Positions 20,806 through 46,819 of a DNA stretch of 46,819 nucleotides are shown here, in pieces. The notes under the pieces were generated by a model. That model had not been told where the DNA came from. It was given only the letters and a program-made list of their open reading frames with translations, and did not search any database. Location of the stretch: positions 1-46,819 of the IMG/VR virus record IMGVR_UViG_3300032893_000090. The stretch is one strand, 5' to 3'. The translations under genes and the position numbers were made by a program. Within the stretch, counting starts at the first letter, position 1, and every line of letters begins with the position of its first letter. The stretch comes from a virus.

Positions 20806-20823
20806 CAGAAACGTACGGCCTAG
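20806..20823 (-). promoter_or_regulatory. GTACGTT-family promoter of the lysis cassette
   Basis: Minus strand CTAGGCCGTACGTTTCTG, two differences from... one base off the capsid copy (C for A before GTACGTT). The CTAG overlaps the stop codon of the 1194-residue gene. It is 31 bases from the start of the next gene. Confidence 0.65.
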
Positions 20824-23800
20824 TATTTCAGTTTGACCGGCTTCTCGCCGTTGATCCGGCGCTGTTTGTTTTCGATTTGTGTTTGCAGAATGTCGGGCCG
20901 GGATGCCTGCAACATGGCGGCGGCGGCCTTGCGGGATTGTCGAATAGTCTGGCGAAAGACTTCCTCCCGCACGCCAACGGGCAGATTTTGCCAGCCAGGT
21001 TGCTCGAGCAGTTTTTCCAGCGACGTGCGCGTGAGCGAGCCGGCCACGGTCTGATAGCGGTCGTAGAGCTCGGGCGGCAATTGCACGCCGTTGATCCGGT
21101 TCTCGGGCGGCGCCGGCTTGAGGTTCAGGTTTTGCATTTCCAGGGCGACCGGATCGAGCGTTGCCGAGCGATGCTGCATGATGGCTGACAGGCCGGGCAG
21201 TTGCGGAATATCAAACCCATATCCCGGATTGGGGATCGGCGAGCCCGCCCAATCCCGTCGCGGTAGGAGGGTCTGACGTTCGCCGGGAATGTAATAGCGC
21301 AGTCCGTCAACGACGGTCTTTGCCTCGCGCATATCCGGGTCCATAGCGCTCGCCGTTTGCCGCAAAAACGACGAATAGGGCAGCAGGCTCCCCGCAAAGC
21401 TGGACACGACGCGCGGGCCATTGCGCTGCGGGTCCTCGATCGCCTGCATGATGTTGGCGAGGCCCTGCATTCCGACCTCATCCTCGAGCAGTCGGCCGAA
21501 GCTATGAACAGTCATGGCAACGGCCTTGTTCAATTCCTCGGCGTCAGGTTTCAGGTGCGGGATGGCCTCGCCGATATTGGCGTGCAGGCCGAGCATGGTC
21601 CCGAGCGGGCCGAACCGATTAAGGCTGATCCATTCATCGCCGATCCGAACCGAATAAGGCTGATGGCCAGTCGCGTACCATTGCGCGCGCTCCTTCGGGT
21701 CGGTCGGCCCGTAGCCAGTCATCCGGTCTTGTCCGACCAGGCTGACGGCCCAGGCGCCCGCGGTCGCGCCGACCACCATGCGCGCGATCGCCATGTCCTG
21801 CTTTACCGCGCCGTTCTTGCCGGAAAGATTGTCGCGAACTTCTTTCTGTAGAAATCCGATGCCCGCCGCCTCCGTGCCCTCTTTGAGCAGGTTCGCCGGG
21901 ATGTGGGTAAACGGCAGCACCAGGCGCGCCGCCGGGAATTGGTTCAGCGCGTTCGTCAACGCCTTACCCTTCGGCCCGAGCTCCTTAATGAACGTCAGCC
22001 GGTAGCCGTCATCGATGGCCTCCCGCATCATTTCTTCGGTTGGCTGATCAGCGATCTCCTGCTGCCGGCGGAAAAAATCCCCGCCGCGATGGCCCTCCGC
22101 TTCCGCAATCCGGGCCGCCTGCTTCTCGATTGACGCGCGGTAGCCCAGGAAATTGAAAAACGAGTGAATGGCCGATGCGGATTTCATCGGTAGGCCGAGC
22201 ACCTGGCCGGGCACCCCGCCGATCGCCTGCTGCTGAAAGAACACGTTCTTGTTGCGCTTGGGCACAATGCCGAGCGCCGTCTCGCCGGGCAGCGGAACCT
22301 GCATATTCTTCTTGAACGCAGTCACGGCCGCCCGCATTGAGTCCGGCACGCCCTTTAGAAGCCCGTACAGCGCGTATCCGCCTTCGGATAGGCGCACCCC
22401 CTCGGTGCTTCCAGTCAGCGCACGCCTGGCCGTCCCTACGCCGCCGGCGACCATCCCAACGCCAGCGTCGTAGACGCCAAAGGTTCCGTTCGCGACGATG
22501 TACTTCCCATGTGTCACCAGCCCCGAGATCAGGGCGTTGACCCAATACCACATGAATTTGTCGAAGAAGCCGGGAGTGCGCGCGTCGTTGAGCAGTTTGG
22601 CCGCTTGGGTGCTGTCGAGGCTTTCCAGCCCGTTCGCGATGTCCCGCAGCCCGTCCGTAGTCTTGCCTTTGTCCTTGAGCCAATTCGATAGCGTCTCCTG
22701 ATCCTTCACGTCCCGGAGAAATTCCTGAAACACATTGCCGGTGCGGCCCCACTCGGCCCGCAGCCCGACGATCTGTTCAACCGCGAGATCGCGGCGCATG
22801 ACCGCCTCTTGGAGCTTGATCAGGTTCTCCGGCTTGTCCTCGGCCTTGAGCTCGCGCGCCGCCGCCTTCACCTGCTCGGTCGCCTCGAGCATGGCGTTCA
22901 TGCCGACGCGCACCTGCCGATCGTTCTGCAATAGCCTGCCGAGCCCGGCCCGATTGATCTCGGTCGGATCGACACCGGCGGCCTGGGCCACCTGCTCGAC
23001 CTGGGAAAGCGGGATCTCGCCGGCCCGCGCCGCGGTGAAATCCTTGTCCTTCGCGCCCTCGAGGATCAGGTTTCGCACGTCCTCGGGCTTGTTGATCTTG
23101 CCGACAAAGCCCTTCCAGCGCTCGGTCCAGGGATCATTCTCGCCCTCGAGCGGTTCCTGCTTGACCGGCGGCGGCTCATCGCCAACCGCGCCGAGCTTCT
23201 TCGCTTCGTCCAGATCGATCACCGGCGGCTCGAGCTGGTCGGCGCGGTCCTCAACGATCTGATGCGCGCGCGCGATCTCATCCGGCGTCGCCGGCGCCTC
23301 GGTCACGGCTTCGTGCTGCGCCGCGCCTACGCTGTCATGGGGATACGGCTTCTTGTACAGGTTCGGCGGCGGGTTCTCCGGGTTCTCATGCTGGATCTGC
23401 GGCAACCATGATTGCTGCTCGGCCTCCGCGGCCTCCTGATCGATCCCGTGCGCGCGATACCATGCCTGCTCTGCTTTCTCGGCAAACTCGAAATGCGCCA
23501 CCCGGTAGGCTTCCTGGGCGTCCATCCCGCCCTTGATCAGCATTTCCATTGTGTGCTGTTCGACGTTCTCGTGAACGATCCATGGGTCTGCCGGGTCGAA
23601 TGTGATGCCGCCAACGGTCTGCTTCTCGGGCACGTGGCGGTCGATGTAGACCGTCGGGTCCTCGAGCGGCACGGAACCGCCGGCCATGTACGGCACATCA
23701 TGCGAGCGATCGACCACGGGATTGTCGATCACTTCCTTTGTGGTCGGGCTGTTCAGGACGGCATCGACATGCGGCAGGCCGGTCTGTGCGGCGACCGTGC

Positions 23801-25953: not shown

Positions 25954-26036
25954 TAGGACGGCCCCCACCAATTGCAGTAAACGCCGATTGCCCAAATGAT
26001 CAGGGCGACGAAAATAAGGATGCCGACGGTATCCAT
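25953..26036 (-). CDS. 27-residue membrane peptide in the ejection operon
   Basis: MDTVGILIFVALIIWAIGVY and seven more residues form one transmembrane helix. It is overlapped by one base by its neighbours on each side (TGATG and TAATG), the coupling seen all along this operon, so it is probably translated. Perhaps part of the ejection apparatus. Confidence 0.5.
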   Translation of the reverse strand: MDTVGILIFVALIIWAIGVYCNWWGPS

Positions 26037-26527
26037 CAGAACAACGCCGCGATGCCGGCGACGGCTTTGATGCCGGCGCTGATGTCCGCACCTTGCGCCG
26101 CCTTGTCCGCCGCGCTTGCGGCCTGGTTGGCCGCCTGGCTCATCAATTGATAGGACTGCGCTTGTTCTTCGTAGCCGGCTTCCGTGATCAGCCCTTGCTG
26201 GGCCAGCGTCGCCTTTGCAAGCGCGCCCTGGTTCGCGCTATCGCGCAGCAGATCGAGCGCAGAACCGGATGCAGCAAACCCGCTCGCCGCTACGTCCGCC
26301 TGCTGCTTGCCGATCGTTTGCATGATGTCGCGCGATTTCTGCGCTTCCTGAATGGCGGTCGATTGCTCGGTGTATTGCTCGTTCTGTTGTGATAGCCCCG
26401 CAGCCAGCGTGTACTCTTGCGACTCGGCGCGGAGGCCCGCGGCCTTGGACTTATCAGCGTCCGCGGCAAAGAGATCGGACACCGCGCCGCCAAAATCCGA
26501 GAATGCTGTCCCGCTCAAGAGTGGCAC
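26036..26527 (-). CDS. Internal virion protein, gp14-like
   Basis: 163 aa, alanine- and glutamine-rich amphipathic helices (SKAAGLRAESQEYTLAAGLS, ASGFAASGSALDLLRDSA). The composition and place right after tail tube B match the small ejection-core protein (T7 gp14 / internal virion protein B). Confidence 0.7.
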   Translation of the reverse strand: MPLLSGTAFSDFGGAVSDLFAADADKSKAAGLRAESQEYTLAAGLSQQNEQYTEQSTAIQEAQKSRDIMQTIGKQQADVAASGFAASGSALDLLRDSANQGALAKATLAQQGLITEAGYEEQAQSYQLMSQAANQAASAADKAAQGADISAGIKAVAGIAALF

Positions 26528-26528
26528 G

Positions 26529-29750: not shown

Positions 29751-29751
29751 G

Positions 29752-31404
29752 TCAATACCGGGTCGCTATGTAGTCATCCAAAGGCGGCTCGGTTGCTCCC
29801 TGGACAATCGCATCATTGAGGCGCGCGGTCGTCGCGTGCTCCTGATAGACGCTGATGATGCGCTTGGTCTTTTCTTCTGATTGCGTCAGCCGCGGGCAGA
29901 TTTCATATCCGATGCGCGCGGCGATCGCCTCGCACAGCATCGGTCCCATTTTCGAAACATCGGTGATGTCGGCGACGAACCGAAAGGCGATCGGCCCGAC
30001 TTCAATCGAGCGAAAGAATTCGCCCTCATATTCCCAATCATCATATTGGAGGTTGGTCGGCGAGCCGAGATAGGACGATTGCCCGGCCTTCGGATCGCGC
30101 GGTGCTGTGCGCAGAAAACCCGCTGGCAAGCGGTAGACGCTGCGCGGGTACGATGCGGAGAGCGGGCCGATCGCTACCGGATAGGTGATCGTGACCGGGA
30201 CAAGGTTCACGCCATTGGGGAATAGCGAGCTATCGCCAACGAGCAGCCAGAGTGAGTTGCCGCCGCCGAGCGTGAAAACCGTTGTCCATGGATTGAGAAC
30301 GCCCGTGTTCGTCCAGAAGCCCGTTGTCTTGGTCGGATCATTGCCCAGGTTGCCGCTGCCGATCGAGGAATAGATCGAGCCATCAGAGCCGCCAACGAGT
30401 TGCCCGGCCGAGTATGTGGTGAGTGCGCTCCACAGCGCCGGCGCACTTGCCGGGCTATTGTTCACGTTGAAATTGATCAGCGACATATAGATTGTGCCGC
30501 CGGTAATGGCCACCCAAAATGTCGATGCAGCCGCGTTCGGATAGTTGTCCGAATTGTTGTTCTGGATCGAAAGATACTGCACCGCGTTGAACATGACCAC
30601 GTTGCCGAGCGCATACACCGTGCTCGAGGACCATTCGACCACCGGGCTGGTCTGTATCGGCGGGATGGGCGTGGTGGACGGGACCGGCTGTGATTGCAGG
30701 ATCAGCGTCGGGACGAGCGCCCATTTGCTCGGATTGGAAATCGGCGCGTTGTTGAGATTGCTGTTCACCAGCGAGGCGTAGACATTCCCATCGGTGTAGA
30801 GAACGCCCTGGCCCTGGCTGTAGGTCGTGAGGCTGCTCCATGCCGGGAACTGCTGCACCACATCGTTGACCTTGTAGGTCGTCGTCGCAATCCACTGGTT
30901 CGAGAGTGACGGATCGACCGCGTTCGAATTGGCCAGCGAGCGGTAGACCTTGAATGTGCCGTCACCCGCCTGAATGTAAACGAGCTCGCCGTTGAAATAG
31001 GTCGTGCTGCTGTCGTAGAGCGGGACCGTCATCGGGCCGAAATATTCGTCCCAGGTATTCGAAAGCAGCGGATTGTTTCCGAGGTTGGTCGGCTGGTTCG
31101 ACTGCCAGAGCGTGCCATACTGATCTTGGACGATCGAGCCTTTGAAGTAAGTCACCGTCGAAACCCACATCGTCGGGCTCAACAGCGCCGTGTTGCTGTC
31201 GATCGGCCGCAGGATCGCCTCTTTGATCGCCACGCGCCACGTGTTGCGTTGGAGCTCGGCCATCCGCAATTTGTCGTAGCAGGACGAAATTTCGAAGGCG
31301 TTAGTGCTCTGTTCGGCAAAGCCCTGCGTCGCGTCAATCTGCGTCGCCCCGCAATGCTGCAAAGCGCGATTTGCGATGTCTACGGGGGTCAAATATCCGG
31401 CCAT
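29752..31404 (-). CDS. Tail tubular protein A-like with CBM-like repeats
   Basis: 550 aa. The N-terminal VDIANRALQHCGATQI and the C-terminal helices (ICPRLTQSEEKTKRIISVYQ) are those of gp11-like tail adaptor proteins, which are normally near 200 residues. Between them lie about five repeated modules with the pattern W/x-x-x-TY-x-x-G-x-x-V ... W (WVSTVTYFKGSIV, STTYFNGELV, LTTYSQGQGV, STVYALGNVV, LTTYSAGQLV), like CBM5/12 chitin-binding folds. The insert may bind host surface sugar. Confidence 0.75.
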   Translation of the reverse strand: MAGYLTPVDIANRALQHCGATQIDATQGFAEQSTNAFEISSCYDKLRMAELQRNTWRVAIKEAILRPIDSNTALLSPTMWVSTVTYFKGSIVQDQYGTLWQSNQPTNLGNNPLLSNTWDEYFGPMTVPLYDSSTTYFNGELVYIQAGDGTFKVYRSLANSNAVDPSLSNQWIATTTYKVNDVVQQFPAWSSLTTYSQGQGVLYTDGNVYASLVNSNLNNAPISNPSKWALVPTLILQSQPVPSTTPIPPIQTSPVVEWSSSTVYALGNVVMFNAVQYLSIQNNNSDNYPNAAASTFWVAITGGTIYMSLINFNVNNSPASAPALWSALTTYSAGQLVGGSDGSIYSSIGSGNLGNDPTKTTGFWTNTGVLNPWTTVFTLGGGNSLWLLVGDSSLFPNGVNLVPVTITYPVAIGPLSASYPRSVYRLPAGFLRTAPRDPKAGQSSYLGSPTNLQYDDWEYEGEFFRSIEVGPIAFRFVADITDVSKMGPMLCEAIAARIGYEICPRLTQSEEKTKRIISVYQEHATTARLNDAIVQGATEPPLDDYIATRY

Positions 31405-31436
31405 GCCGCAACGTGCGGATCGGGCGCCAGTGTCTC

Positions 31437-31464
31437 AACGTACTGCCTAGCAGGTACGTTTCTG
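31437..31464. promoter_or_regulatory. Back-to-back GTACGTT promoters between tail tube A and the spike
   Basis: Two motif copies overlap head to head. The minus copy is CTAGGCAGTACGTT (31450-31437), 33 bases from the start of tail tube A. The plus copy is CTAGCAGGTACGTTTCTG (31447-31464), 30 bases from the spike start. They share the central CTAG, forming an almost perfect palindrome. Confidence 0.7.
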
Positions 31465-31474
31465 ACCGACTCGG

Positions 31475-31490
31475 GGCAGGGTCACCTGCC
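31475..31490 (+). promoter_or_regulatory. Hairpin over the spike ribosome-binding site
   Basis: GGCAGG-GTCA-CCTGCC, perfect six-pair stem, ends three bases before the ATG at 31494. It contains the only purine-rich stretch available as Shine-Dalgarno, so translation may be restrained. Confidence 0.4.
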
Positions 31491-31493
31491 GCC

Positions 31494-33257
31494 ATGCACA
31501 AGATACTCGCAGCCATGATGGCTTGGGTGTGCCTGGCGATCGCCGCCTACGCACAGACCCCGAATTTTCCGCAGACCCTTCCATCGAACACGGTCGTCGG
31601 CCGGCTCGGGATCTCAGCAGGCCCGACTGAGGCAATTCCGTTTCAGAGCCTTGCCTCGCAATTGGCCCCCTACCTGACGAACCAAACGTTGCTCACGAAA
31701 TGCAACGTGGTCGCGCAGGGAGCGGTCTATTCGGCCGCGGGCGCCACCAATGCCGCGGCGAACACCACCATCATCCAGAGCGTCATCAATACGTGCGGCG
31801 CGATCTACGTGCCCGGCCCGCAGGGTGGCCAGACCTACGACTCAAATGGCGAGCCTACTCAATGCCTCAACGTCAACGCGACACTGGTCTGGACCGCGAC
31901 GCTGGCGGGTGGGGCGGTCGGAGACGGCCCGAGCGTGTCCTGCATCAATAGCAACAACGGCGCTTCGTGCGTCGTGAGCCCGCATGGGGTGATCAAAGGC
32001 TTCTTCGCAAACCTGACGCTGCGCCATTCGCCCAGCCTGAGCCTCACGGCGCACTCGACCTCATCGACCGGCGCCTGCGGCTTCGATGGCGGCTTTCTGC
32101 AATCCGCCGGCTTCATCGAAACGTACAATCTCAACGTTGTGTATAACTACGATAATGCCATTCTCGGGCATGTCGCCATCGGCAATTGGCGCGGCGGTTG
32201 GTCCGGGTATGCAAGCCAAAACGGGTTCTATTGGGCCTGCTCGTTTTCCGCCTGCACTCCCCAATGGAACATGGTCGGCGGAACGCTAGTCAATAACAAC
32301 AATAATGACGGGATTTTGATCCAGTGTCTTTCGACGGTCGGCGGCTCGATCGCCCCGAATGACATTGCCAACGTGAACAGCGTCCTCAACGGTAATTACA
32401 CCGTCGAGGTTGACGGGACCGCATGTAGCGTCGCCAACTTCCGCATTCACGATAGCTTTCTCGGCGAGGGTGCGACCGGACACATTCGCCTAAATTCGGC
32501 GGCCACGAACACCTACGACATCCACGACGTGCTGCTCGAGAGCCCCGGCTTTGCCTGTACGAGCGGATCACCAAACACCAACTGCGGCGGCAATCTCACC
32601 AATTCCGGCTGCGTGTCGGGCGTCGGGATCGGTATCTCGGCAGTCGGAACGGCTCCCGTCGAAATCTCGCACGTGATTTCATACGGGTGCGGCGGCCTCG
32701 CGACCAACGGGATATGGCTCAACGGCCCCACCCGCTGGTCGATCATGAACAGCGAAATGGTGAGCTACGGCGGGCCTGGCTATCGCCTGACAACCGGGAC
32801 CGGAACCTTCATCGGGAATAAGGCGGTCAACAATATCACCAACGGCGGCAGCGCCGGGGTGGGCGTGTTCGTTGACAGCACCGTGACCCTGGTCACGACG
32901 GAAGGCAACATTATCACCGGCAACACAACGGACGTGAGCGCGAGCGGCGCGCAATTCAGCGGGACCACAGTCACGGGTGCCTCCGTGAGCACCGGCGGAT
33001 CTGGCTGCACGAACGGCGCGCAATCGTTCGTCATCGCGGGCGGTGTTGGCGTCGTGAACTTGACCGCCTCATTTAGCGGAACCGTAACCGGCAATGCACT
33101 GAGCGGCACACTGACTATGACAGGCGGCGGCAATTATAACTGGACGCCCAAGATCGGCGCGACTGCTGTCGGCGGTAGCTGTTCGGTTGCCCCGACGGTC
33201 AACATCCGCCGGAACAACACCGATCTCTGCACCGGCAACACGACCTGCTTTTGGTGA
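31494..33257 (+). CDS. Secreted beta-helix spike-like protein on the opposite strand
   Basis: 587 aa from MHKI. A clear Sec signal peptide (MHKILAAMMAWVCLAIAAYA, cleavage after AYA) is followed by a segment typical of phage tail proteins (NTVVGRLGISAGPTEAIPFQ) and a long repetitive beta-helix of the pectate-lyase type (NGIWLNGPTRWSIMNSEMVS and similar turns). About eighteen cysteines suit an oxidising compartment. It has its own promoter and runs against the late operon, so it could be a spike or a lysogenic-conversion exoprotein. The upstream in-frame ATG at 31371 lies before the promoter and is rejected. Confidence 0.75.
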   Translation: MHKILAAMMAWVCLAIAAYAQTPNFPQTLPSNTVVGRLGISAGPTEAIPFQSLASQLAPYLTNQTLLTKCNVVAQGAVYSAAGATNAAANTTIIQSVINTCGAIYVPGPQGGQTYDSNGEPTQCLNVNATLVWTATLAGGAVGDGPSVSCINSNNGASCVVSPHGVIKGFFANLTLRHSPSLSLTAHSTSSTGACGFDGGFLQSAGFIETYNLNVVYNYDNAILGHVAIGNWRGGWSGYASQNGFYWACSFSACTPQWNMVGGTLVNNNNNDGILIQCLSTVGGSIAPNDIANVNSVLNGNYTVEVDGTACSVANFRIHDSFLGEGATGHIRLNSAATNTYDIHDVLLESPGFACTSGSPNTNCGGNLTNSGCVSGVGIGISAVGTAPVEISHVISYGCGGLATNGIWLNGPTRWSIMNSEMVSYGGPGYRLTTGTGTFIGNKAVNNITNGGSAGVGVFVDSTVTLVTTEGNIITGNTTDVSASGAQFSGTTVTGASVSTGGSGCTNGAQSFVIAGGVGVVNLTASFSGTVTGNALSGTLTMTGGGNYNWTPKIGATAVGGSCSVAPTVNIRRNNTDLCTGNTTCFW

Positions 33258-36217: not shown

Positions 36218-36226
36218 TTCGTTCTC

Positions 36227-37540: not shown

Positions 37541-37550
37541 GCGAGAGCAC

Positions 37551-37763: not shown

Positions 37764-38344
37764 TAGTCGGCTCCGACGTAATACACTTCTCCCGACACCA
37801 CACCGCCGGCGGTCGCGATCGCGGTCGTCAACTTGATGCCGAGATCGAAGAACCCGCCGGGATCGGTCGTGAACTGCGTTGCGCCGAGGGCGACAAGAAC
37901 CTGCCAAACCGGAAGGTTCTGATAAGCCGGCAAAAACGACGACGTATTCTTGAAAGTGACATCCTGACGGGCAGCGCTGGCCGCCAACGTCACGGCAGAA
38001 CCAAACATCTTGTTGTCCGCCGGGCCGCTGATCTGCACCACCGGGTTCGCAAGCGCATTAAGCGCTTGCTGGGTGCCATCCGTCAGACTGTCCGAGAACA
38101 TGAGCTCGATGTCGCCGGCGCCGGTGGTGATGCTCGGCGAATACAGATACACGCTCTTGATCTTGGCGGTAGTCGGGATACGGCAGAGGCGATAGATCGA
38201 ACCGATCGAGTCGCCGACCACAGCCGTGATCGAGTCCATGACCACGCGAGTGATGCCAGGAGCGCCTTCGCCAACCGCGTTTGCGACAATCGGGCTCGCA
38301 TCGAGGTTGGTGATCGAGAGTGACTTGGTAGTGACGACAGCCAT
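37763..38344 (-). CDS. Head decoration-like virion protein
   Basis: 193 aa, beta-rich with few charged residues (IKSVYLYSPSITTGAGDIEL, GVVSGEVYYVGAD). Together with the 75-residue gene upstream it immediately follows the capsid gene, the usual place of decoration or head-completion proteins. Confidence 0.65.
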   Translation of the reverse strand: MAVVTTKSLSITNLDASPIVANAVGEGAPGITRVVMDSITAVVGDSIGSIYRLCRIPTTAKIKSVYLYSPSITTGAGDIELMFSDSLTDGTQQALNALANPVVQISGPADNKMFGSAVTLAASAARQDVTFKNTSSFLPAYQNLPVWQVLVALGATQFTTDPGGFFDLGIKLTTAIATAGGVVSGEVYYVGAD

Positions 38345-38356
38345 GGCTGTGCTCCG

Positions 38357-38584
38357 TTATGGCCCTGCCGGGGTGATAAAGATTGCATCGCTCTGGATGG
38401 CGCGGGTGATTGCCTCAAGAGCGATCAGAAGGTCTTTCTTCGTGAGGACGTTCGAGTTCTGGTCTGATGTGTTGAACCGGAACTCCATATCCGTGCCGCC
38501 CGTTGGCGTCGCGGTGCCGATCGTGAAATCGGAAACGCGAAACCCGTCCAGGCCGTGATTGATCGCGAGCGAGATCCCAGCCAT
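38357..38584 (-). CDS. Small protein after capsid
   Basis: 75 aa. A beta-rich first half (DGFRVSDFTIGTATPTGGTD) and a helix (KKDLLIALEAITRAI). Located nine bases after the capsid stop. Function unknown; head-related by position. Confidence 0.65.
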   Translation of the reverse strand: MAGISLAINHGLDGFRVSDFTIGTATPTGGTDMEFRFNTSDQNSNVLTKKDLLIALEAITRAIQSDAIFITPAGP

Positions 38585-38593
38585 AGCTACTCC

Positions 38594-39535
38594 TTACGGG
38601 GTCACGTCACTAGCGGCCGACTGATCGGCACACAGGACTTGCAGCAAGCGGCCCGGCTCGAGGCGGGTCGCGCCCGAGCTCATCTGCGTGTAAAGCTGAT
38701 AGGGCAGCGAGCTCAAATCCTTGCGCTGCGTCACGTCGTTGCGCATGTCGAGCCAGATGCCGAGATAGGCGCCGGACTTCACGAGCGCGATGTTCTGACG
38801 GGTGTTACTGGTCGAGAGCAAGCGCTCCGAATAAACGATGTCGAAGCCCATGAACCGGGTTACCTTGCCCTCAACGAGGGTCGGCCGATCGTTGCCGGTG
38901 AAGTCGGTCGAAACCACCTGCACCTGATTGAGCAGATCGCTTTCGCCCTGGCTGTTGGTGATCCAAGTCAGGGCCTCGGCGTCCACATCAACCTGCAATT
39001 TGCGGAAGGCGCGCTTGGCCTCGATCATCTTCGCGACGGTCAAGCCGACGGCGGCCGAAGCCGAGAACGCGGCCGGAACTTGGAAACCGGAACTGGTGAC
39101 GGTCGAGCCGGTGTTGAACACTTCGCTCGAGAGCGAACCGGCGTCCTGGCCGATCGATGCGGTCGCAAACGCGGCGCCGATAATGCGGTCATCCCATTCG
39201 CGGGCGACGGCGGCGGCGGCCACATCGGCATATTGGCTGGTCGGATCGCTGATCAGCTTGAGCTTGTCGAACGTGTCGATAAGCTGGCTGGCTTCCTTGT
39301 CCACCGGGAAAACCCAGCGGCGAGTGAAATCAACGTCCTGTCGGTTCAGCGGGGCAAACTTGCCGGCCGGCGCCTGCATCTGAATGGCGCCGATGTACTG
39401 GATCGGGCTGGCCTGCTTGCCGTAATGATTGCCCTCCATGACCTTGCCGCGCAGCTTCGACGTGCGCTGTTGCAGCTTCAGGTGCAGGAGTGCGCTGAAT
39501 TCTTCGACATACAGCTTGAAAAGGTTCTCAGACAC
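38594..39535 (-). CDS. Major capsid protein
   Basis: 313 aa. N-terminal LYVEEFSALLHLKLQQRTSK, then DFTRRWVFPVDKEASQLIDT, internal helices (AAAAVAREWDDRIIGAAFAT) and a late YLGIWLDMRNDVTQR strand resemble the HK97-fold 'Phage_capsid_2' family found in many alphaproteobacterial podoviruses. The start is a GTG at 39535 with GGAG about nine bases upstream; that GTG lies in a sequence complementary to two upstream repeats. Scaffold and portal genes lie just upstream. Confidence 0.8.
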   Translation of the reverse strand: MSENLFKLYVEEFSALLHLKLQQRTSKLRGKVMEGNHYGKQASPIQYIGAIQMQAPAGKFAPLNRQDVDFTRRWVFPVDKEASQLIDTFDKLKLISDPTSQYADVAAAAVAREWDDRIIGAAFATASIGQDAGSLSSEVFNTGSTVTSSGFQVPAAFSASAAVGLTVAKMIEAKRAFRKLQVDVDAEALTWITNSQGESDLLNQVQVVSTDFTGNDRPTLVEGKVTRFMGFDIVYSERLLSTSNTRQNIALVKSGAYLGIWLDMRNDVTQRKDLSSLPYQLYTQMSSGATRLEPGRLLQVLCADQSAASDVTP

Positions 39536-39611
39536 GGCTCTCTCCGGTCGGATGGATCGAACGTTTGCTGCCGTGTCCGCTGATGCGGGGGCGCGAATGT
39601 TCGGCCGTGTC
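39531..39611 (-). promoter_or_regulatory. Start-codon-sequestering repeats of the capsid gene
   Basis: On the minus strand GACACGGC occurs twice (39611-39604 and 39577-39570) and its exact complement GCCGTGTC covers the GTG start (39538-39531). Either upstream copy could pair with the start codon over eight bases, with the Shine-Dalgarno in the loop for the nearer one. Confidence 0.5.
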
Positions 39612-39638
39612 CTTTCGGGGGCCGTCTCAGTCAGGCTT

Positions 39639-39725
39639 CTGATCCCTGCTCACCGTACCCTTGCGGGGGTGAGGACCGGCGGCGTGGGGGCGGGCTGGTA
39701 GGCCGCCGGTCTCAGGAGGGATCAG
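39639..39725 (-). ncRNA. Predicted three-way-junction RNA in the capsid leader
   Basis: Perfect stems nest inside one another: outer CTGATCCCT (39639-39647) with AGGGATCAG (39717-39725); inner hairpin CTCACC/GGTGAG (39649-39654 with 39668-39673); inner hairpin GACCGGCGGC (39674-39683) with GCCGCCGGTC (39702-39711). It lies between the capsid promoter and the capsid start, so on the minus transcript it is a 5' leader element. Folding was read by eye. Confidence 0.6.
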
Positions 39726-39765
39726 GTCGCCATCACGTGCGGACCGTAATGGCTAGGCTAGGAAG

Positions 39766-39784
39766 CCAGAAACGTACTGCCTAG
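39766..39784 (-). promoter_or_regulatory. GTACGTT-family promoter of the capsid unit
   Basis: Minus strand CTAGGCAGTACGTTTCTGG, the best match to the consensus. It comes right after a terminator for the upstream unit and starts a leader of about 230 bases before the capsid. Confidence 0.7.
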
Positions 39785-39809
39785 AAAAGTCCCGATTTTC
39801 CGGGGCTTA
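39785..39809 (-). terminator. Rho-independent terminator before the capsid unit
   Basis: Minus strand AGCCCCG-GAAAAT-CGGGACT followed by TTTTC. It overlaps the stop codon of the 49-residue gene and directly precedes the capsid promoter, separating packaging/portal/scaffold transcripts from the capsid transcript. Confidence 0.65.
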
Positions 39810-39956
39810 TTTCTTCTTCGCGTGCTTTTTCAGGCGGGACTTTCCGGCCTGATGTAACGCGATGGCAACCGCCTGCTTCTGCGGATAGTCATGTGCCTTG
39901 AGCTCTTTGATATTCGAGCTCACAACGGCTTGGGATTTGCCCTTGCGTAGTGGCAT
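39807..39956 (-). CDS. DUF6496-like small basic protein
   Basis: 49 aa. MPLRKGKSQAVVSSNIKELK and KQAVAIALHQAGKSR with a lysine-rich tail (KKHAKKK) match the small basic phage family DUF6496 (function unknown). Such genes are common near head genes. Its stop lies in the terminator stem. Confidence 0.65.
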   Translation of the reverse strand: MPLRKGKSQAVVSSNIKELKAHDYPQKQAVAIALHQAGKSRLKKHAKKK

Positions 39957-39963
39957 GTTGGCC

Positions 39964-40320
39964 TCACGAGGCTTTGGCCTGCTGCATTCGATACCAGCGC
40001 ATTACGCGGTTAAAGCGCACCTGCACCTTCGGATTGTTCTTGTGCCGGGCGTGCAGGCCGGTCGTCAGCGGATTGACGCAGCAATCCTCCTGGCTGATCC
40101 AGCAGCACGGCTTGCCCTCCGCGGCGGCCTCGATGCACGCGGCGAGGCATGTGTTCTTCGACAGACCCCAAAACAATTCATCGTCGGATTGCTGATCTGT
40201 CTTTGGCTCGGACCGGGCTGCGCGCCGGGCCGGCACGATGCGGCGCTTGTACTTGCGGCGCGGGCGCGGGCTCTCTGGAGCCTCGGCGGTCTCAACCTCG
40301 TTTTCCATCGTCTCGTCCAT
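39964..40320 (-). CDS. Cysteine-rich late protein
   Basis: 118 aa. An acidic, proline-containing start (MDETMENEVETAEAPESPRP), a basic stretch (RRKYKRRIVPARRAAR) and a C-terminal domain with five cysteines (CLAACIEAAAEGKPCC, then EDCC). GGGAGAACACC precedes the ATG. Longer frames begin inside the scaffold gene. Function unknown. Confidence 0.6.
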   Translation of the reverse strand: MDETMENEVETAEAPESPRPRRKYKRRIVPARRAARSEPKTDQQSDDELFWGLSKNTCLAACIEAAAEGKPCCWISQEDCCVNPLTTGLHARHKNNPKVQVRFNRVMRWYRMQQAKAS

Positions 40321-40330
40321 GGTGTTCTCC

Positions 40331-41209
40331 CTACATGCTCGCCAGTTCGCGGGCTTCACTGATGCCGTGGATTTGCTCCATCAGCGCGCGGAACTCGCGC
40401 TTTTCGACAGCACCGCCAGCCGTGAAGCGCTTTGCCCATCCGTCCTTGTCGGACATCAGGTCGTTGAGGCGCGAGCGCGCCTGCTCGGATGTGGTCGGGC
40501 TATTTGTGCGATTGCCGCCCTCAACAAACGATGTTTCTGTGGTGCCGACGCCAATGCGGTGAAACAGCTTGGCAGCGGTGTCCGCGCCGAGCGCGTCCTC
40601 GAGGGAACGCACCTGCTCTTGAGACAGCCCGAGCCGGCGAGCGCCGTTGAGCGCCACCAGCATGTTTGCGTCCTTGTTGGTGCCCCACTCCCGGTCCAGC
40701 GCGGCAAGTTGCTCGGTACGCTTCTGCGTCGCGATCACGCTTTCCGACTTGTCCGCGTCCTCGATGAACTTGACGATCGCCTTGCTGACCTCGCTCGCCG
40801 CCTCTTTGGGCAGGTGCGCTTTGGCGAACGTGTTGCGCAGCGTGTCAACCAGGCCGGCCTCGACATCAGTGTTGTCGGAGAACTTCGTCGGGATTTCGTA
40901 GTCCTTCGCCTCCTTCGGGGCGCCGAGCTTTTCCCACACGGACGCCCAGGCGTTCGGATCATTGTTGTTGTCGGGCAGGCGCACGATGCGGTCCGCGGGT
41001 GCGCCGATGTGACGCTCGGCGGCCTTCCAAGACTTCGTGACCTCTTGCACGAGCTTGGCGGGATCGGAAATGTCCCATCCCTTATTCTGCCAGGAGCCGA
41101 TCACGTCGGCCTCGATACCCTGATGCCAGGGCGGTGCGGCCGGCGGTGTTGCCGGCGGGGAAGCCGGCGGCGTGCCGGCTGGGGGTGTCGCGGGTGCGGC
41201 CTCAGCCAT
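40331..41209 (-). CDS. Scaffolding protein
   Basis: 292 aa. Alanine/proline-rich N-terminus (residues 1-27), a helical middle (KEAASEVSKAIVKFIEDADK), a disordered polar stretch (about 230-250) and a C-terminal helix-turn (GWAKRFTAGGAVEKREFRAL) that would bind the capsid protein. Gene order portal - small protein - scaffold - capsid matches T7-like phages. It overlaps the upstream gene by eight bases. Confidence 0.75.
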   Translation of the reverse strand: MAEAAPATPPAGTPPASPPATPPAAPPWHQGIEADVIGSWQNKGWDISDPAKLVQEVTKSWKAAERHIGAPADRIVRLPDNNNDPNAWASVWEKLGAPKEAKDYEIPTKFSDNTDVEAGLVDTLRNTFAKAHLPKEAASEVSKAIVKFIEDADKSESVIATQKRTEQLAALDREWGTNKDANMLVALNGARRLGLSQEQVRSLEDALGADTAAKLFHRIGVGTTETSFVEGGNRTNSPTTSEQARSRLNDLMSDKDGWAKRFTAGGAVEKREFRALMEQIHGISEARELASM

Positions 41210-41441
41210 AGTAGGACTCCAATGTTGGGAATAGTTCGCGTAGTTGCTCGCGCGATAGCTCCTGATGTTGCAGGATACGCAGGTACACCTGGCGCCGGCC
41301 CTCGAGCAGCGGGTCGGCGTTGGTCGTCATGAGCGCTCGGCAAAACCGTTTCAGATCGTTGAAAACCATCTTGCCAGCAGGCGAGTCGAACACCTGCTGA
41401 TAGGCGCGCTTCATTTCCTCATACTCAGTAAGCGGGATCAT
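41202..41441 (-). CDS. Bbp19-like small phage protein
   Basis: 79 aa. YQQVFDSPAGKMVFNDLKRF (about 14-33) followed by ADPLLEGRRQVYLRILQHQE fits the Bbp19-like family of small podovirus proteins found between portal and scaffold. Function unknown. ATGA overlap with the portal stop. Confidence 0.65.
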   Translation of the reverse strand: MIPLTEYEEMKRAYQQVFDSPAGKMVFNDLKRFCRALMTTNADPLLEGRRQVYLRILQHQELSREQLRELFPTLESYYG

Positions 41442-43162
41442 GCGGCGGGCGGTTGTCCTGGGTTGATGCCAGCCTTGGCATAGGCGTTGATGAGCGCAGC
41501 CTGTGCCGGCGCGGCCTCAACCTGCTGCTGGCGTGCCTGCTGCCGCGCACGGTTCTGGCGCTTCGCAGCAACCTTGTCTGGCGCAGACATCCAGCGCTCG
41601 GGCACGTTCTGGATTTGCGAGATCTCGGGGATCGCCGTGTCGAAATCGAACGGATCGAATAGGCTCGGATCTTGCGTGATATTGGCAATCTCCCGCACGC
41701 CCTCGAGGGTGCGAAAGAAGCCGGCCGCCTCGCCCTGGCGCGCGGCCATCGCCAGCGGCGAGGTATCGACAACCTCATACTCGCCACTGGCCTCGCGCAG
41801 CCGCGGCGGCATTGGCCCGAGCATTCCCATGGACACGGCAAGGTCGAGCTCGCGCTCCACCAGGCCGCCCACGTATTCGTCATGCTGGCGACCGAGCGTC
41901 GGAGCGACCAACATGCCCTTTTCGTTGACGAGCTCGATGACTTGCGTCGCCGTCATGTCGGGATGCTCAGTCAGCACCTTGAACAGCGAGACGAGGAACG
42001 TGTCATCGATCAGGCCGCGTTCTTCGGCCATCATCTTCTCTGTGATGGCAATGTCGCCGGTCGGCAGCGTAGTGACCAGCGGCTTGCCATCCATGTTGAC
42101 CGCGCCCTTGTTCATCGCGCCAGGCGTCAGATTGAAATCGATCAGCCCGTCGTCCGCCGTCAGCAACACCGGGTCGCCCGCGCGATGTCCCTGCTTGAGA
42201 AACACGGTCTTCTCGGCGTTGAGGGTTTTCATTGCCGGCAGGATGATCTGCGCCGGTCCGCGGCCGTAGACCTCGCCAGGCGTCTGATCGTAACGCGACA
42301 CGGCAAACGGAAACTTGCGATAGCCGCCTTCCGGCTGCATCAGGCATTGGCCTTCGACCGAGATATAGTAGGACTCGAAAGGCATGGCCTTCGCGTCGAG
42401 CCGCCGCGGGTCGTAGTCCGCGCGCGGGCGCACGCAATGCAGGAATTGGAATGGCCATTTGCTTTGCTGTTGCAGCGGCGCGTGCAGCGCGCCAGGCAAC
42501 CACTCGATGCCCCACTTCTGCACCGCCTGATAGGCCGTCAGGCGGAACCATCGGATCATTCGATCGACTTTGCCTTGATGGTTTTCGCCAAAGAACGTTT
42601 CGCCGAGCGGTACAGCTTTGTAGCGTAGTCCGCGGGTGCCGCCGTAATGCCGGCCATCGAACGCATCGCAATACATAGTCGAATTGCCGAACGCTCCCAG
42701 GCTTTGCCAGTTGTTGTAATTCTGGCCGGCAAAGTTCGCATTCGGCGCATAGCGTAGACGGAATAGAGTACGAGTAGCATCCTCGAACCACAGCCGCGTC
42801 GCGCGGTCCTTCATGATGTAGTCGGCATTCGGACCACCGGCGCGCAACCCGTGCCAGCGCAGGTTCTTTGGCGTCACCAACGAGTCGGCGATCGCGCAGA
42901 ACCGATGCAGCGCGAGCGCGCTTGTGCCATCGATCTGCTCGCGGGTCTTTTTCCAGCCGGGCCAGGTGAAGTTCTGATAGTAAAACGTGTTGCGCGACGT
43001 GGGCAGGATCAGCCGCGCGGCTTCCTCCCACTGCTCGGCAAAATTCCAGCGCCAGATCTGATATTGCGAGAACTCGGCCATCACGTCTTGAACGATCTCA
43101 CTCTCATCGAGCGTGATCTGGCGCGACTTGGGCAGAGCGGTTGTTGCAATGATCTCGGCCAT
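41438..43162 (-). CDS. Portal (head-to-tail connecting) protein
   Basis: 574 aa, close to the family length. The N-terminus (LILPTSRNTFYYQNFTWPGW; IDGTSALALHRFCAIADSLV; TPKNLRWHGLRA) follows the Head-tail_con pattern of T7-type portals, and the region ending with YDQTPGEVYGRGPAQIILPA agrees. The last 50 residues are glutamine/alanine-rich. Forms the dodecameric ring for DNA entry. The ATG overlaps the upstream stop (TGATG). Confidence 0.85.
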   Translation of the reverse strand: MAEIIATTALPKSRQITLDESEIVQDVMAEFSQYQIWRWNFAEQWEEAARLILPTSRNTFYYQNFTWPGWKKTREQIDGTSALALHRFCAIADSLVTPKNLRWHGLRAGGPNADYIMKDRATRLWFEDATRTLFRLRYAPNANFAGQNYNNWQSLGAFGNSTMYCDAFDGRHYGGTRGLRYKAVPLGETFFGENHQGKVDRMIRWFRLTAYQAVQKWGIEWLPGALHAPLQQQSKWPFQFLHCVRPRADYDPRRLDAKAMPFESYYISVEGQCLMQPEGGYRKFPFAVSRYDQTPGEVYGRGPAQIILPAMKTLNAEKTVFLKQGHRAGDPVLLTADDGLIDFNLTPGAMNKGAVNMDGKPLVTTLPTGDIAITEKMMAEERGLIDDTFLVSLFKVLTEHPDMTATQVIELVNEKGMLVAPTLGRQHDEYVGGLVERELDLAVSMGMLGPMPPRLREASGEYEVVDTSPLAMAARQGEAAGFFRTLEGVREIANITQDPSLFDPFDFDTAIPEISQIQNVPERWMSAPDKVAAKRQNRARQQARQQQVEAAPAQAALINAYAKAGINPGQPPAA

Positions 43163-43686
43163 CAGGCTTCCACCAATCTCTTAGCGTCGGGATCTGCGGG
43201 GTCCATGGTCGGATCGCGGCGCATGTCGGCAGCGAGCCATCGACGTGCCACCGTGAAAAACTCGAGCCGTTCCTGATCGGTGAACTTCATGCGATCAGCA
43301 AATTGGCGCAGGCTCGATCTGTAATCGGCCTCGCGCCTGAACAGGACTGTTCGCTTCGGTTTGACGCCGCCGGGTCGGGCTACGTCCGCAACCACTCGGC
43401 CCGCTTTATCGATGCGACCAGTGCTGCATACAATCGTGCCCGTGAGCGCTTTGAAGTAGGGATGAATACAATGCAGAAGTACAATCCAAGCATCGTTGCT
43501 GTCAAAGCTATGGGCCATGATCGAGAGCAGGATGGCGCCGAATTCGTCTCGTGCTCGCACGAACGCCATACTCTGGCGCCAAGTTGCCGCAGCGATGACG
43601 CGCCCCTGCCAACTTTCGAGCAAGTCTTGAGGCAGGCGGCGCGTATCGAGCTCACCGACATCAACCAGGTCCGCGCTAGTATGCAC
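43162..43686 (-). CDS. Hypothetical protein before portal
   Basis: 174 aa from a GTG at 43686, overlapping the upstream stop by eleven bases. Helical, with FGAILLSIMAHSFDSNDAWI and a basic RRLPQDLL region; FRREADYRSSLRQFADRMKF near the end. Located directly upstream of the portal gene. Unrecognised, perhaps a packaging accessory. Confidence 0.55.
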   Translation of the reverse strand: MHTSADLVDVGELDTRRLPQDLLESWQGRVIAAATWRQSMAFVRARDEFGAILLSIMAHSFDSNDAWIVLLHCIHPYFKALTGTIVCSTGRIDKAGRVVADVARPGGVKPKRTVLFRREADYRSSLRQFADRMKFTDQERLEFFTVARRWLAADMRRDPTMDPADPDAKRLVEA

Positions 43687-43861
43687 CGCCGTACACCGAT
43701 GAGAGGGCGCCCGGCCGCGTGTTGGTCATGTAGCTCGAGAGCGGGCTCATCTGCTGCTGCTGCTGTTGCAGCCGCTTGCGCCGCTGTTCCTCAGTCTCGG
43801 TCTGCGTCTGCTGCTGTAGCAGATCGCCGAGACCGAGACCCATGCCGGGTGCGGTTGCCAT
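43676..43861 (-). CDS. Glutamine-rich small protein
   Basis: 61 aa. MATAPGMGLGLGDLLQQQTQ followed by a tract of seven glutamines encoded by mixed CAG/CAA repeats, and a tyrosine-rich end. The repeat may be length-variable. Start ATG chosen because the longer frame runs into the upstream gene. Function unknown. Confidence 0.5.
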   Translation of the reverse strand: MATAPGMGLGLGDLLQQQTQTETEEQRRKRLQQQQQQMSPLSSYMTNTRPGALSSVYGGAY

Positions 43862-43863
43862 CG

Positions 43864-44451
43864 TTACCCCGTGTGTGTGAAGGTGTATTGCGTGCTGCCG
43901 TTGCTCGTGGCGTTGCTCAGACTGCTGGTCATGCCGCAAGTATCCGTGTCGCCCTTGCTCCAACTCACCGAGCCGCTTCCGTCATTCAATGTCATGCTCT
44001 TGAAGGCGCCCGACAGAAATTGGATGTCAGAGCAGGATGACTCGGTGAAAACCTCATCCGCAGCGATAGCGATCGACATCGACGAACCCAACGTATAACT
44101 GCCGATACTCGTCACAGACAATTGCGAACCGTTGCTGTAACACTCGATGAACCAATTCGATCCGGTCCATTCAATCAGAAAGTCAACCGTCGAGCCGGTG
44201 GTTACAGTAGACCCCCAGGCCGGACTTCCAGTCGGCTGCTGTCCAGTGTTGTCGTCTACAGCTTCACAAAATGGCGTCCATTGCGTGCCTCCCCACCAAA
44301 GTCCGGTCTGGATAACATGGTTCCCGTCCGACAGCCCAATCCATAGAGCAAAAGACCCGCTGTCTGTGCCGGGATTGCTTGGCACGTCCATGGTGGCAAA
44401 AAATTTGGTAAAGGTGCCGCTTGTAGTTGCTTGGCAAATACGTGTTCCCAT
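43864..44451 (-). CDS. Jelly-roll-like virion protein
   Basis: 195 aa, almost entirely beta strands with many glycine, serine and tryptophan residues (GSTVDFLIEWTGSNWFIECY; GSYTLGSSMSIAIAADEVFT), like concanavalin/jelly-roll modules of phage head fibres. Located after a GTACGTT promoter and a leader terminator. GGGGAAA precedes the ATG. A surface protein of the capsid is plausible. Confidence 0.6.
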   Translation of the reverse strand: MGTRICQATTSGTFTKFFATMDVPSNPGTDSGSFALWIGLSDGNHVIQTGLWWGGTQWTPFCEAVDDNTGQQPTGSPAWGSTVTTGSTVDFLIEWTGSNWFIECYSNGSQLSVTSIGSYTLGSSMSIAIAADEVFTESSCSDIQFLSGAFKSMTLNDGSGSVSWSKGDTDTCGMTSSLSNATSNGSTQYTFTHTG

Positions 44452-44471
44452 GATTTTCCCCGCTGTTGCCC

Positions 44472-44507
44472 TAGAAAAGGCCGGCGGGGCTATCCGCCGG
44501 CAAGTCT
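44472..44507 (-). terminator. Leader terminator / attenuator before the jelly-roll gene
   Basis: Minus strand GCCGGCGG-ATAGCC-CCGCCGGC followed by CTTTTC: an eight-pair hairpin with U-run, an intrinsic terminator. It lies after the promoter at 44568-44586 and before the gene at 44451, so it would stop most transcripts of its own unit unless read through. Confidence 0.6.
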
Positions 44508-44567
44508 AGGGAGGAAGCGCCCAAGAAGGGTGCTTGGAACGCGGGGAATGTGGGGGAGGCTCAAAAT

Positions 44568-44586
44568 GCCAGAAACGTACTGCCTG
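44568..44586 (-). promoter_or_regulatory. GTACGTT-family promoter after the large terminase
   Basis: Minus strand CAGGCAGTACGTTTCTGGC, identical to the capsid copy over GGCAGTACGTTTCTGG. It begins one base past the large-terminase stop and reads toward the jelly-roll gene, 117 bases away. Confidence 0.65.
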
Positions 44587-44587
44587 T

Positions 44588-46027
44588 CTAAAACAGATCG
44601 AAATCCACGCCTTTCGCGAGCCCGCTCGGCGACACCATCTTGCGCCGGTCCGCGGTGCCGAGTGTCACGGCCTTCGCGTAGCGCTTCATCATTATTCCGA
44701 CGCGCGTCGCGGAAAGCAAATCGTCGTTGATCTTGACGATTTGGCCGTCCTTCACGTGATAGTTCCGGTATTCCTCGAACCAGTCAGATAGATGCTTGGC
44801 AACGCGCAGGCGCGCCGTATTGAACCGGCCTTCCATTTCCTTCACGCCCGCCCAGGTCGAGTTGCCGCCCTCCGGCCACTGAGCGTGCTCGTGAAGCATT
44901 GCCAGGCCCTCCTGGCGATAGAGGGTTTGCAGGACTACGCCGGTTCCGGGATCTCGGTTGGTTCCGTCTTTCGGCCAAGCAACGGGCACCAGGCCGCCCA
45001 CGTGTCGCATCGAGCTTGCGTGCTGAATAGGGAGGGCGTCCCTGATCCGAAGGCAATGGTGGAGGTGCAGAACGTCGTTGTCACGGTCCCACAGTAGGAG
45101 CACGGCCGCGAAAGGATGTCCGATGCCAAAATCAATTCCCCAAATCTTGGCCCAATGTGCCGGGACATAGGTGATCGGTTCCTCCATGATTGCTTCCTCG
45201 GGCGTCGTGAACACACGCCCCTGCCCGAGCATGATGCCGCCGTGAATGCGCGAAACCCGCTCGTACGGCAGATATTGCGCCTCGAGCTCCGCGTGCTTCT
45301 CGGGCGGAATGTGCAGCGCGTGCTTGAGCCCGATCGTCACCATCGCCCGGTTCGGTGCTTCCTCGCGCCAGAACCGATCCGTCAAAGCCGTATTGCCCAG
45401 CAGCGAGGTAAACGTCGTGTAGATCATCCCCTCGGTCGCGGTGACGCGCGCCAATTCCTCCGAGTAGATCTCCATCGGGCATTCTTCGTCGTTCCAGATG
45501 AAATCCAGCGTCTCGCCCTGGAACTTCGTCCGCCCCTGCTCGTACGACTTGAACCGGAACACCGACACCCCGCCCGTCACGTGGCGCACCTGCACCGTGT
45601 CGATCGCGTCCGTCACTCGGCGCGCCAGTGACTTGTCGAGAATGCACTCCCGCGGGACCATCCCCGTCCCGAGCTCGGCCTCAACGCCCGGCTCGCCCAG
45701 CAGCTTCTTCTGCGTCGTATCGCGCACCGACAGCGATGTCGGCCCGCAGATCCAGCCGCGCACAGGCCGATCCCAGCGCCGCCCCCTCCACCAATCAGGA
45801 TACCGCCCCGTCAGATGGCACGTCGCCTCGAACGCGCCCGCCTCCGTCTTGCCAAGCTGATTGCCGGCCGTCAGCAACCGTTCTTTCTTGTCCTTCCCGA
45901 GCGCGAAAAACTCAGCCTGCTTCGGATACGGATTGAAAAACCGCATCCGGTTAAACCGATGCTGATCCTGAATGTACGCCAGCGCGCGCCGGCGCTGATC
46001 AGGCGTCAGGGGAACAGCTTCGTTCAT
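44588..46027 (-). CDS. terL: Terminase large subunit
   Basis: 479 aa. Walker A AGNQLGKT (54-61), Walker B DFIWNDEE (175-182) with catalytic glutamate, coupling motif TTFTSLL (about 204-210), then an RNase H-like nuclease domain beginning WGIDFGIGHPFAAVL (D299) with further acidic residues downstream. It is the packaging motor and DNA-cutting enzyme. Both small-terminase copies are on the same strand and the right-hand one lies upstream, separated by a short coiled-coil gene. Confidence 0.9.
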   Translation of the reverse strand: MNEAVPLTPDQRRRALAYIQDQHRFNRMRFFNPYPKQAEFFALGKDKKERLLTAGNQLGKTEAGAFEATCHLTGRYPDWWRGRRWDRPVRGWICGPTSLSVRDTTQKKLLGEPGVEAELGTGMVPRECILDKSLARRVTDAIDTVQVRHVTGGVSVFRFKSYEQGRTKFQGETLDFIWNDEECPMEIYSEELARVTATEGMIYTTFTSLLGNTALTDRFWREEAPNRAMVTIGLKHALHIPPEKHAELEAQYLPYERVSRIHGGIMLGQGRVFTTPEEAIMEEPITYVPAHWAKIWGIDFGIGHPFAAVLLLWDRDNDVLHLHHCLRIRDALPIQHASSMRHVGGLVPVAWPKDGTNRDPGTGVVLQTLYRQEGLAMLHEHAQWPEGGNSTWAGVKEMEGRFNTARLRVAKHLSDWFEEYRNYHVKDGQIVKINDDLLSATRVGIMMKRYAKAVTLGTADRRKMVSPSGLAKGVDFDLF

Positions 46028-46157
46028 CGCGCACCTTCAATGCCGCCAACTCAGCCTCGAGCTCGCCGACCCTGCGCGTCAACTCCCCCGCCTCCGCGAT
46101 GTACTTCTCGCTGACGATCTCGTACGCGCGCTTCCAGTCAGTCTGGGTCTGTTCCAC
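45999..46157 (-). CDS. Small coiled-coil protein between terS and terL
   Basis: 52 aa from a GTG overlapping the terS end by 20 bases. A charged helix (WKRAYEIVSEKYIAEAGELT then RRVGELEAELAAL) fills most of the product. The 3' end overlaps the terL start in another frame. The GTG lacks a strong Shine-Dalgarno, so only the coding pattern and coupling support it. Confidence 0.5.
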   Translation of the reverse strand: MEQTQTDWKRAYEIVSEKYIAEAGELTRRVGELEAELAALKVRDERSCSPDA

Positions 46158-46641
46158 GTGCAACAACCTCCCCTTCGATCACCTTCGGGCTCGGCAGCAG
46201 CGCATCCTCCCGCAACCCCTGCTCAACCGCCAGCCGCCGAGCATATTCCTCCAACTGCGCCATGTCCGCAGTGTGCTCAACCGTCACCTTGTGCTCAGTC
46301 TTCGCCGAGAAACCCGTCCGATCGAGGATCGTCTCAACAATCCGCGCGTGCGCTGGATGCTTCGGATCCTCGAGGATCTTCTTCGCCGCCCCAATCGCCG
46401 TCGGCGCCAAATGCTGCAACGCCTTCGACGAGACTTCCTTGATCGCCGCCTGCACCCCCGCGTGCAGCATCAGGTGATGCGCCGTCACTCGATCCGCGCC
46501 AGAACTGTCCGAATACCCCGCTTCCCTAGCAGCCTTCGCCGCATTCGACTCCCCGCACCCCATCAAATACGCAAACGCCCGCCGCCGAGCGCTCAACGCC
46601 AGCATCGCCGGGCCACAGAACTCGTCAGGGACCTCAATCAT
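46138..46641 (-). CDS. terS: Terminase small subunit, right copy
   Basis: 167 aa from MIEVPDEF. N-terminal helix-turn-helix (FAYLMGCGESNAAKAAREAG), a middle helical part and the conserved ILDRTGFSAKTEHKVTVEHT block. Compared with the left copy (32-457) it carries an uninterrupted C-terminus (EQGLREDALLPSPKVIEGEV). Upstream in-frame ATG at 46752 lies before the promoter motif and is rejected. Expected to bind the packaging site and partner the large terminase gene downstream. Confidence 0.85.
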   Translation of the reverse strand: MIEVPDEFCGPAMLALSARRRAFAYLMGCGESNAAKAAREAGYSDSSGADRVTAHHLMLHAGVQAAIKEVSSKALQHLAPTAIGAAKKILEDPKHPAHARIVETILDRTGFSAKTEHKVTVEHTADMAQLEEYARRLAVEQGLREDALLPSPKVIEGEVVARGTDPD

Positions 46642-46819
46642 GCGGAAAGTCAGATCGCCTATACGGCCGTTAGCAAAAACGTACGCCCTCAAAATCCGCA
46701 TAACCACCTCAAAATGCTTACAAGCGGTTGTAACGACCAATAAGTCGTCCAAAAAGCGAAGCCTCCGGAAAAAAGCCGCGAAAGAGAGGGGGTAGGTCGG
46801 AAATCCGGTGCTCGAGTTT
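46188..46819. repeat. Right copy of divergent terminal direct repeat
   Basis: Same orientation and gene content as 1-621. The last 50 bases are nearly identical to 570-621, and the window stops at the base matching 621, two bases before the polypyrimidine tract begins in the left copy. The stretch 46696-46819 contains no gene that I see. Confidence 0.85.
46674..46695 (-). promoter_or_regulatory. GTACGTT-family promoter of right terS
   Basis: Minus strand TTTTGAGGGCGTACGTTTTT, the same variant as at 486-507, about 32 bases upstream of the terS start. The conservation of the motif, while bases around it differ between the two copies, supports function. Confidence 0.65.

Follow-up and report, generated by a model that had tools for sequence, protein, structure and literature searches.

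How might a phage that encodes no visible RNA polymerase of its own use one promoter-like word in front of nearly all of its late genes? The DNA that raises this question, referred to here as the window, is a stretch of 46,819 bases (an IMG/VR virus record, described as an uncultured soil phage) that carries most of its late genes on the minus strand and whose late half has no near DNA match among 50,697 phage records. By capsid protein, its nearest cultured phages are the HTVC010P-type pelagiphages (~30–34% identity, mostly 31–34%), with homology at ~34% identity extending across 97% of the protein. Closer capsid relatives are encoded on 122 viral contig stretches; we took 28 relative contigs, most of them whole and several of them fragments, and called genes by cross-genome similarity using our own scripts. 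The landmarks of the window that matter here are:

11630–12538, phage integrase
38594–39535, minus strand, major capsid gene
41438–43162, portal, podovirus-type
44588–46027, large terminase (terL)
1–621 and 46188–46819, contig ends, imperfect copies of one another (77–96%), each with a terS gene; explained either by tandem duplication within a circular genome or by the assembler having joined two strain variants

An earlier note on this DNA had described GTACGTT as the core of a motif heading late units, and the word is indeed over-represented, with 9 copies in the window against 1.9 expected (s.d. 1.5), a count that none of 100 shuffles reached; an 18-base consensus had 4 matches at no more than 3 mismatches, compared with 0.02 expected. 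The copies lie at 490, 20810, 31437, 32120, 39771, 44574 and 46678 on the minus strand and at 1109 and 31454 on the plus strand; the coordinates given in the note are correct to within a few bases. Eight of the nine are situated upstream of a gene and in the orientation of that gene. The exception, at 32120, is antisense within the spike gene and is probably a chance occurrence. That the motif flips with gene direction can be seen at 31437 and 31454, where the tail-gene site (31410..31443) and the spike site (31454..31487) stand back to back. A weaker form had been proposed upstream of position 1179, and there is a site there, weak and with its ATG well removed. The eight putative promoters are:

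463..496, minus strand, putative late promoter of the left terS copy (ORF 32–457); box GTACGTTTTGA at 496–486, –10 TATTTG at 468–463, ATG at 457, 39 nt away
1109..1142, plus strand, weak promoter-like site before ORF 1179–1397; box GTACGTTGGCT, –10 TAATTT at 1137–1142, ATG at 70 nt, not leaderless
20783..20816, minus strand, putative late promoter of the lysis unit (ORF 20275–20775, endolysin next); box GTACGTTTCTG at 20816–20806, –10 CAAACC at 20788–20783, ATG at 20775, 41 nt away
31410..31443, minus strand, putative late promoter of the tail gene 29752–31404 (tail family match); box GTACGTTGAGA, –10 CACGTT at 31415–31410, ATG at 31404, 39 nt away
31454..31487, plus strand, putative late promoter of the spike gene; box GTACGTTTCTG, –10 TCACCT at 31482–31487, ATG at 31494, 40 nt away
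39744..39777, minus strand, putative late promoter of the major capsid gene; box GTACGTTTCTG at 39777–39767, weak –10 region at 39749–39744, 242 nt from site to gene (a 242-nt leader), homologous sites in relatives
44547..44580, minus strand, putative late promoter after terL, before ORF 43864–44451; box GTACGTTTCTG at 44580–44570, –10 CACATT at 44552–44547, 129 nt from site to gene (a leader of ~129 nt), homologous sites in relatives
46651..46684, minus strand, putative late promoter of the right terS copy; box GTACGTTTTTG at 46684–46674, –10 GATCTG at 46656–46651, ATG at 46641, 43 nt away

At five of these sites (490, 20810, 31437, 31454 and 46678) an ATG-initiated ORF begins 39, 41, 39, 40 and 43 nt, respectively, from the first G of the box; the chance that at least five of nine sites would have such spacing is 1.6e-5. 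Measured from beyond the box the interval is ~32–36 nt, in keeping with the ~30 bases noted previously. The two terS sites diverge from the long consensus past GTACGTT(T), and are not independent of one another because both fall within the imperfect end repeat (1–621 and 46188–46819).

Comparison with related phages indicated that the window motif is one version of a box, usually GGTGCGTTGCTG, that is common to a large family of uncultured HTVC010P-type podovirus relatives and that occupies homologous places in them. In particular, word statistics revealed that GTGCGTTG(C/T) is enriched in many related contigs, where, as in the window, it precedes terS, the capsid gene and the tail gene and follows terL. 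In 24 genomes, 148 box sites lay outside gene bodies and 25 inside. A logo of 141 aligned sites from box-bearing genomes reads G-GT(G/A)CGTTG(C/T)TG, ~17 nt, (C/A)AnnTT; that is, a general box GTxCGTTGnnG with a degenerate –10 element, nAnnTT, 17 bp past the TTGnnG part. The conservation of the box itself is partly circular, because GTxCGTT served to pick the sites, but the –10 element was not selected for. Moreover, the –10 signal was retained among the 66 sites that lack an ATG at 38–44 nt (A, 0.59; T, 0.65), and is therefore not an effect of start-codon context. In the window, A is found at the second position in 6 of the 8 sites and T at the sixth in 4. The arrangement is thus of the σ70 type, with two elements, a 17-bp spacer and a degenerate –10 bearing A2 and T6, except that the –35 place holds TTGCTG or TTTCTG, inside the box, instead of consensus TTGACA. 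These findings make it highly likely that in the phage late promoters the motif serves as the box of the –35 region, a reading that, as a computational one, we regard as strong. On this reading, host RNAP with its housekeeping σ would read the nAnnTT element 17 bp from TTGnnG, and the box, which would stand in for a canonical –35, would be recognized by an activator of phage origin, most probably the product of the gene that we call f13 (described below).

Relatives that lack the box provide a natural control. Two relatives with neither the box nor f13 have, when read by eye, TTGACA-type promoters upstream of the capsid gene (TTGACA-N18-TATATT in G021 and TTGACA-N17-CATAGT in G001), whereas no consensus σ70 promoter was found in positions 38000–46819 of the window. 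This is the pattern expected if an activator box had replaced the –35 element. Nor are the box-less genomes simply the most distant ones, since their capsids are 56–57% identical to that of the window, compared with 47–50% for those of box-bearing G023, G026 and G027. Repeats in G021 (GTTCACGCTG) were considered as equivalent sites and set aside, as they form a single clustered run and are not spread. G001 carries palindromic GCGCAATATTATTGCGC-type repeats before terS (flipped coordinates 3550–3760), with a similar repeat preceding its capsid gene; these may belong to an unrelated operator.

The fixed position of the start codon bears on how these genes would be expressed. Across the 24 genomes, the first ATG-initiated ORF lies 36–46 nt from the box at 78 of the 148 sites, 69 of them at 39–41 nt, and a Shine–Dalgarno (SD)-like word is absent from 75 of the 78 short-leader genes, whereas 81 of 144 other late genes have one (counts that include both of the near-duplicates G023 and G027). 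Because the –10 element ends at +33, an ATG at +39 to +41 coincides with the expected start of transcription. Together, the fixed box-to-ATG distance and the missing SD lead us to expect leaderless mRNAs from much of the late regulon. For roughly half of the family's sites, and for 5 of the 8 in the window, we would place the first transcribed base on the A of the ATG or only a few bases from it, and we predict that the late mRNAs at the short-leader sites are very likely leaderless. At the capsid and post-terL sites, transcription would instead start ~90–200 nt upstream of the gene and yield a long leader. The sharpness of the box-to-ATG distance could also be accounted for if the box were an RNA-level element, such as a translation enhancer fixed before the start codon, and not a promoter. 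However, for the capsid and post-terL genes this combination of box and –10 is found a long way from the coding sequence, ordinary promoters precede the capsid gene in box-less relatives, and the late segment of the window would otherwise have no consensus promoter, all of which render an RNA-level element very improbable. No description of the box, or of a leaderless late regulon in such phages, turned up in the open literature searched, which takes in only a minority of subscription papers.

Several potential RNA structures occur near these promoters. In 79 of 83 cases, leaders of the capsid gene (~39535–39770, minus strand, in the window, and those of relatives) contain 1–4 hairpins in tandem, each built as stem-CCC-loop-GG(A/G)(C/T)A(A/C)-stem. 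When 173 such elements were selected solely on their core, pairing at outer-stem positions was seen in 109–160, mostly well above slid registers and with several compensatory pair types; no match to the hairpins was found in Rfam. The post-terL leader (window 44440–44540, minus strand) has a conserved TTCCTCCCTnGACTTGCCGGC-like stretch. Terminator-like hairpins are present at 44501–44480, between the post-terL promoter and its gene, and at 39804–39791 (minus strand), just upstream of the capsid promoter box. At relatives' capsid sites a GC-rich inverted repeat surrounds the –10 element (mean stem 4.4, versus 2.45 in shuffled sequence); as a general feature of the promoters this dyad was discarded, being strong at capsid sites only and hardly seen elsewhere.

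The variants of the box point to a factor acting in trans. Besides the type seen in the window (GTACGTTTCTG), the family includes boxes of types GTGCGTTGCTG and GCCGTGAATTTTG, with individual examples being GTACGTTGCTG in G029, GTGCGTTGAG in G024, GTGTGTTG in G012 and ATACGTTGCC in G018. Likeness at box-flank positions was 0.661 within a phage and 0.502 between phages (shuffle s.d. 0.009, a difference of ~18 s.d.), whereas within-phage coherence of control flanks was near zero. That the sites of a phage change together implies a trans-acting, co-evolving reader; gene conversion between sites is disfavored because the flanks would then have moved too. A different host for each phage could also give rise to such coherence.

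As for what this reader might be, the earlier note saw no single-subunit RNAP in the window, and our searches bear this out: PF00940 was found in none of 30 records, while the T7 positive control was recovered at an E value of 1e-110, and such a polymerase was thereby dismissed as the reader. A shared phage σ factor was dismissed likewise, since σ region 4 scored above the cut-off in one genome and no such family was common to the box-bearing genomes. A zinc-ribbon ORF near terS, the counterpart of a P2 Ogr-type activator, was present in 4 genomes only. The proposal that the motif is recognized by either a small phage activator or an alternative host σ factor therefore stands as regards the need for a trans-acting reader, and between the two the evidence leans, short of proof, towards the activator. 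A host alternative σ factor or host regulator, with box variants reflecting different hosts, would fit the bacterial type of the promoter layout and the lack of a phage σ common to the group. Against this, the closest relatives, with capsids 88% identical, carry a different box (some have GCCGTGAATTTTG at both homologous places that can be read, with no such box detected upstream of their terS), the box-less relatives use TTGACA-type promoters, the box tracks the presence of f13, and the 141-site logo has no conserved GC at the distance expected of the σ54 core GG-N10-GC. We consider a host reader improbable, and think it likely that the box is read by a phage-encoded factor. A phage activator working with host σ70 RNAP is favored by the within-phage coherence, the distribution of f13 and the canonical promoters of the box-less relatives.

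The best candidate for this activator is:

2989..3534, minus strand, f13, a 181-residue helix-turn-helix (HTH) protein of the Xre fold whose C-terminal helix is long and basic; its gene lies upstream of the late operon

The f13 family is found in 20 of 20 near-complete box-bearing genomes and in none of the four box-less ones (two of which are partial sequence), and is the sole non-structural family with that pattern. An AlphaFold model of the protein (pLDDT 86) shows an HTH followed by the long C-terminal helix, and structural matches to HipB and the restriction-controller protein C.Esp1396I (TM to target 0.6–0.88, best E 0.025) identify the fold as Xre-type; f13 reached no family in Pfam. 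Distances between f13 HTH domains did not correlate with those between boxes in a Mantel test (rho 0.02, p 0.40). In a nearest-neighbor test devised after that result, the boxes of nearest neighbors were more alike when neighbors were defined by f13 than by terminase, terS or portal (p 0.0003–0.0007); the tail gene f5 equaled f13 at k=1, and f13 ranked first of 16 families at k=3. The same promoters could be served by another phage reader, either a small unrecognized ORF or the product of f15, with f13 acting in lysogeny or replication. The negative Mantel test, the ability of tail genes to track the box about equally at k=1 and the presence pattern of f15 (encoded just before the capsid promoter; in 19 of 20 box-bearing and 0 of 4 box-less genomes, two of the latter partial) would all accord with this. 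Nevertheless, f13 alone among non-structural families is in every box-bearing genome and missing from the box-less ones, it folds as a DNA-binding HTH protein and leads at k=3, and the zinc-ribbon ORF is confined to its 4 genomes, so that a different phage reader seems unlikely, if less so than a host one.

With moderate confidence, resting on computation and a structural model, we suggest that f13 is the reader, the odds being slightly in its favor. Taken as a whole, the explanation comprising an activator box at –35, host σ70 RNAP, f13 as the reader and leaderless starts at about half of the sites appears fairly probable. More tentatively, f13 may belong to a class of HTH activators not described before, reading a box at the –35 position and driving leaderless late mRNAs, reader and boxes co-evolving into a code private to each phage. 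The earlier note had remarked on neither the –10 element with its 17-bp spacer nor the predicted leaderless starts, and it had not pointed to co-evolution of the box across the family or to a candidate reader gene.

Several known systems come close. In T4 middle promoters a MotA box takes the –35 place and host RNAP uses a σ70 –10 element. Those promoters resemble the ones described here in pairing a phage-specific box at –35 with a –10 retained for host RNAP; they differ in the box, in having a good TATAAT where the –10 here is degenerate, and in that here late genes with predicted leaderless starts are concerned. Small phage DNA-binding proteins of the P2 Ogr and Mu C types activate late genes with host RNAP. 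The Ogr site, however, is near –55, whereas the box here lies over –35, and Ogr is a zinc finger, whereas f13 has an Xre fold. HTVC010P-type phages are reported to rely on host RNAP; for one of them, Skadi, the absence of an RNA polymerase and the presence of genes for transcriptional regulators have been reported, in common with others of the type (PMC10504331). The HTVC010P pelagiphages share with the window phage a homologous capsid and, as reported, the lack of an RNA polymerase; unlike them, the box family is high-GC, and both the window and its relatives are known from uncultured contigs. Inspection by eye of six HTVC010P upstream regions revealed no such box. Leaderless mRNAs are common in Caulobacter (375, with 171 in Sinorhizobium) and are translated there as efficiently as others (PMC4117421). 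As in our prediction, their start codons are at or next to the transcript start; what differs is that the prediction here extends to a large part of a coordinated late regulon in a phage, and that an alphaproteobacterial host is only hinted at. The start-associated sequences of Cluster K mycobacteriophages are situated a few bases before the start codon, whereas the box described here is ~40 nt upstream with a –10 element in between. Like the box, these sequences recur within the phage and are associated with the starts of translation (PMC4351075).

For relatives of the HTVC010P group, our results yield a promoter code specific enough to test, together with a candidate activator. If correct, they would take leaderless expression beyond isolated genes to a large part of a phage late regulon, and the natural variety among pairs of box and f13 would offer a ready set for studying activator–promoter co-evolution.

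Regarding the host, a search by capsid returned distant MAG matches only (38–41% identity), and a search of alphaproteobacterial genomes with aligned f13 sequences was set aside, the matches being mainly to the repetitive basic C-terminus of the protein. The relative G004 encodes a homologue of GcrA (L163:6300–6725; PF07750, E 2.9e-15), which hints at an alphaproteobacterial host. Finally, the early region of the window (15319–16879) contains at least 4 copies of AACGCTAAAGGCCCG.
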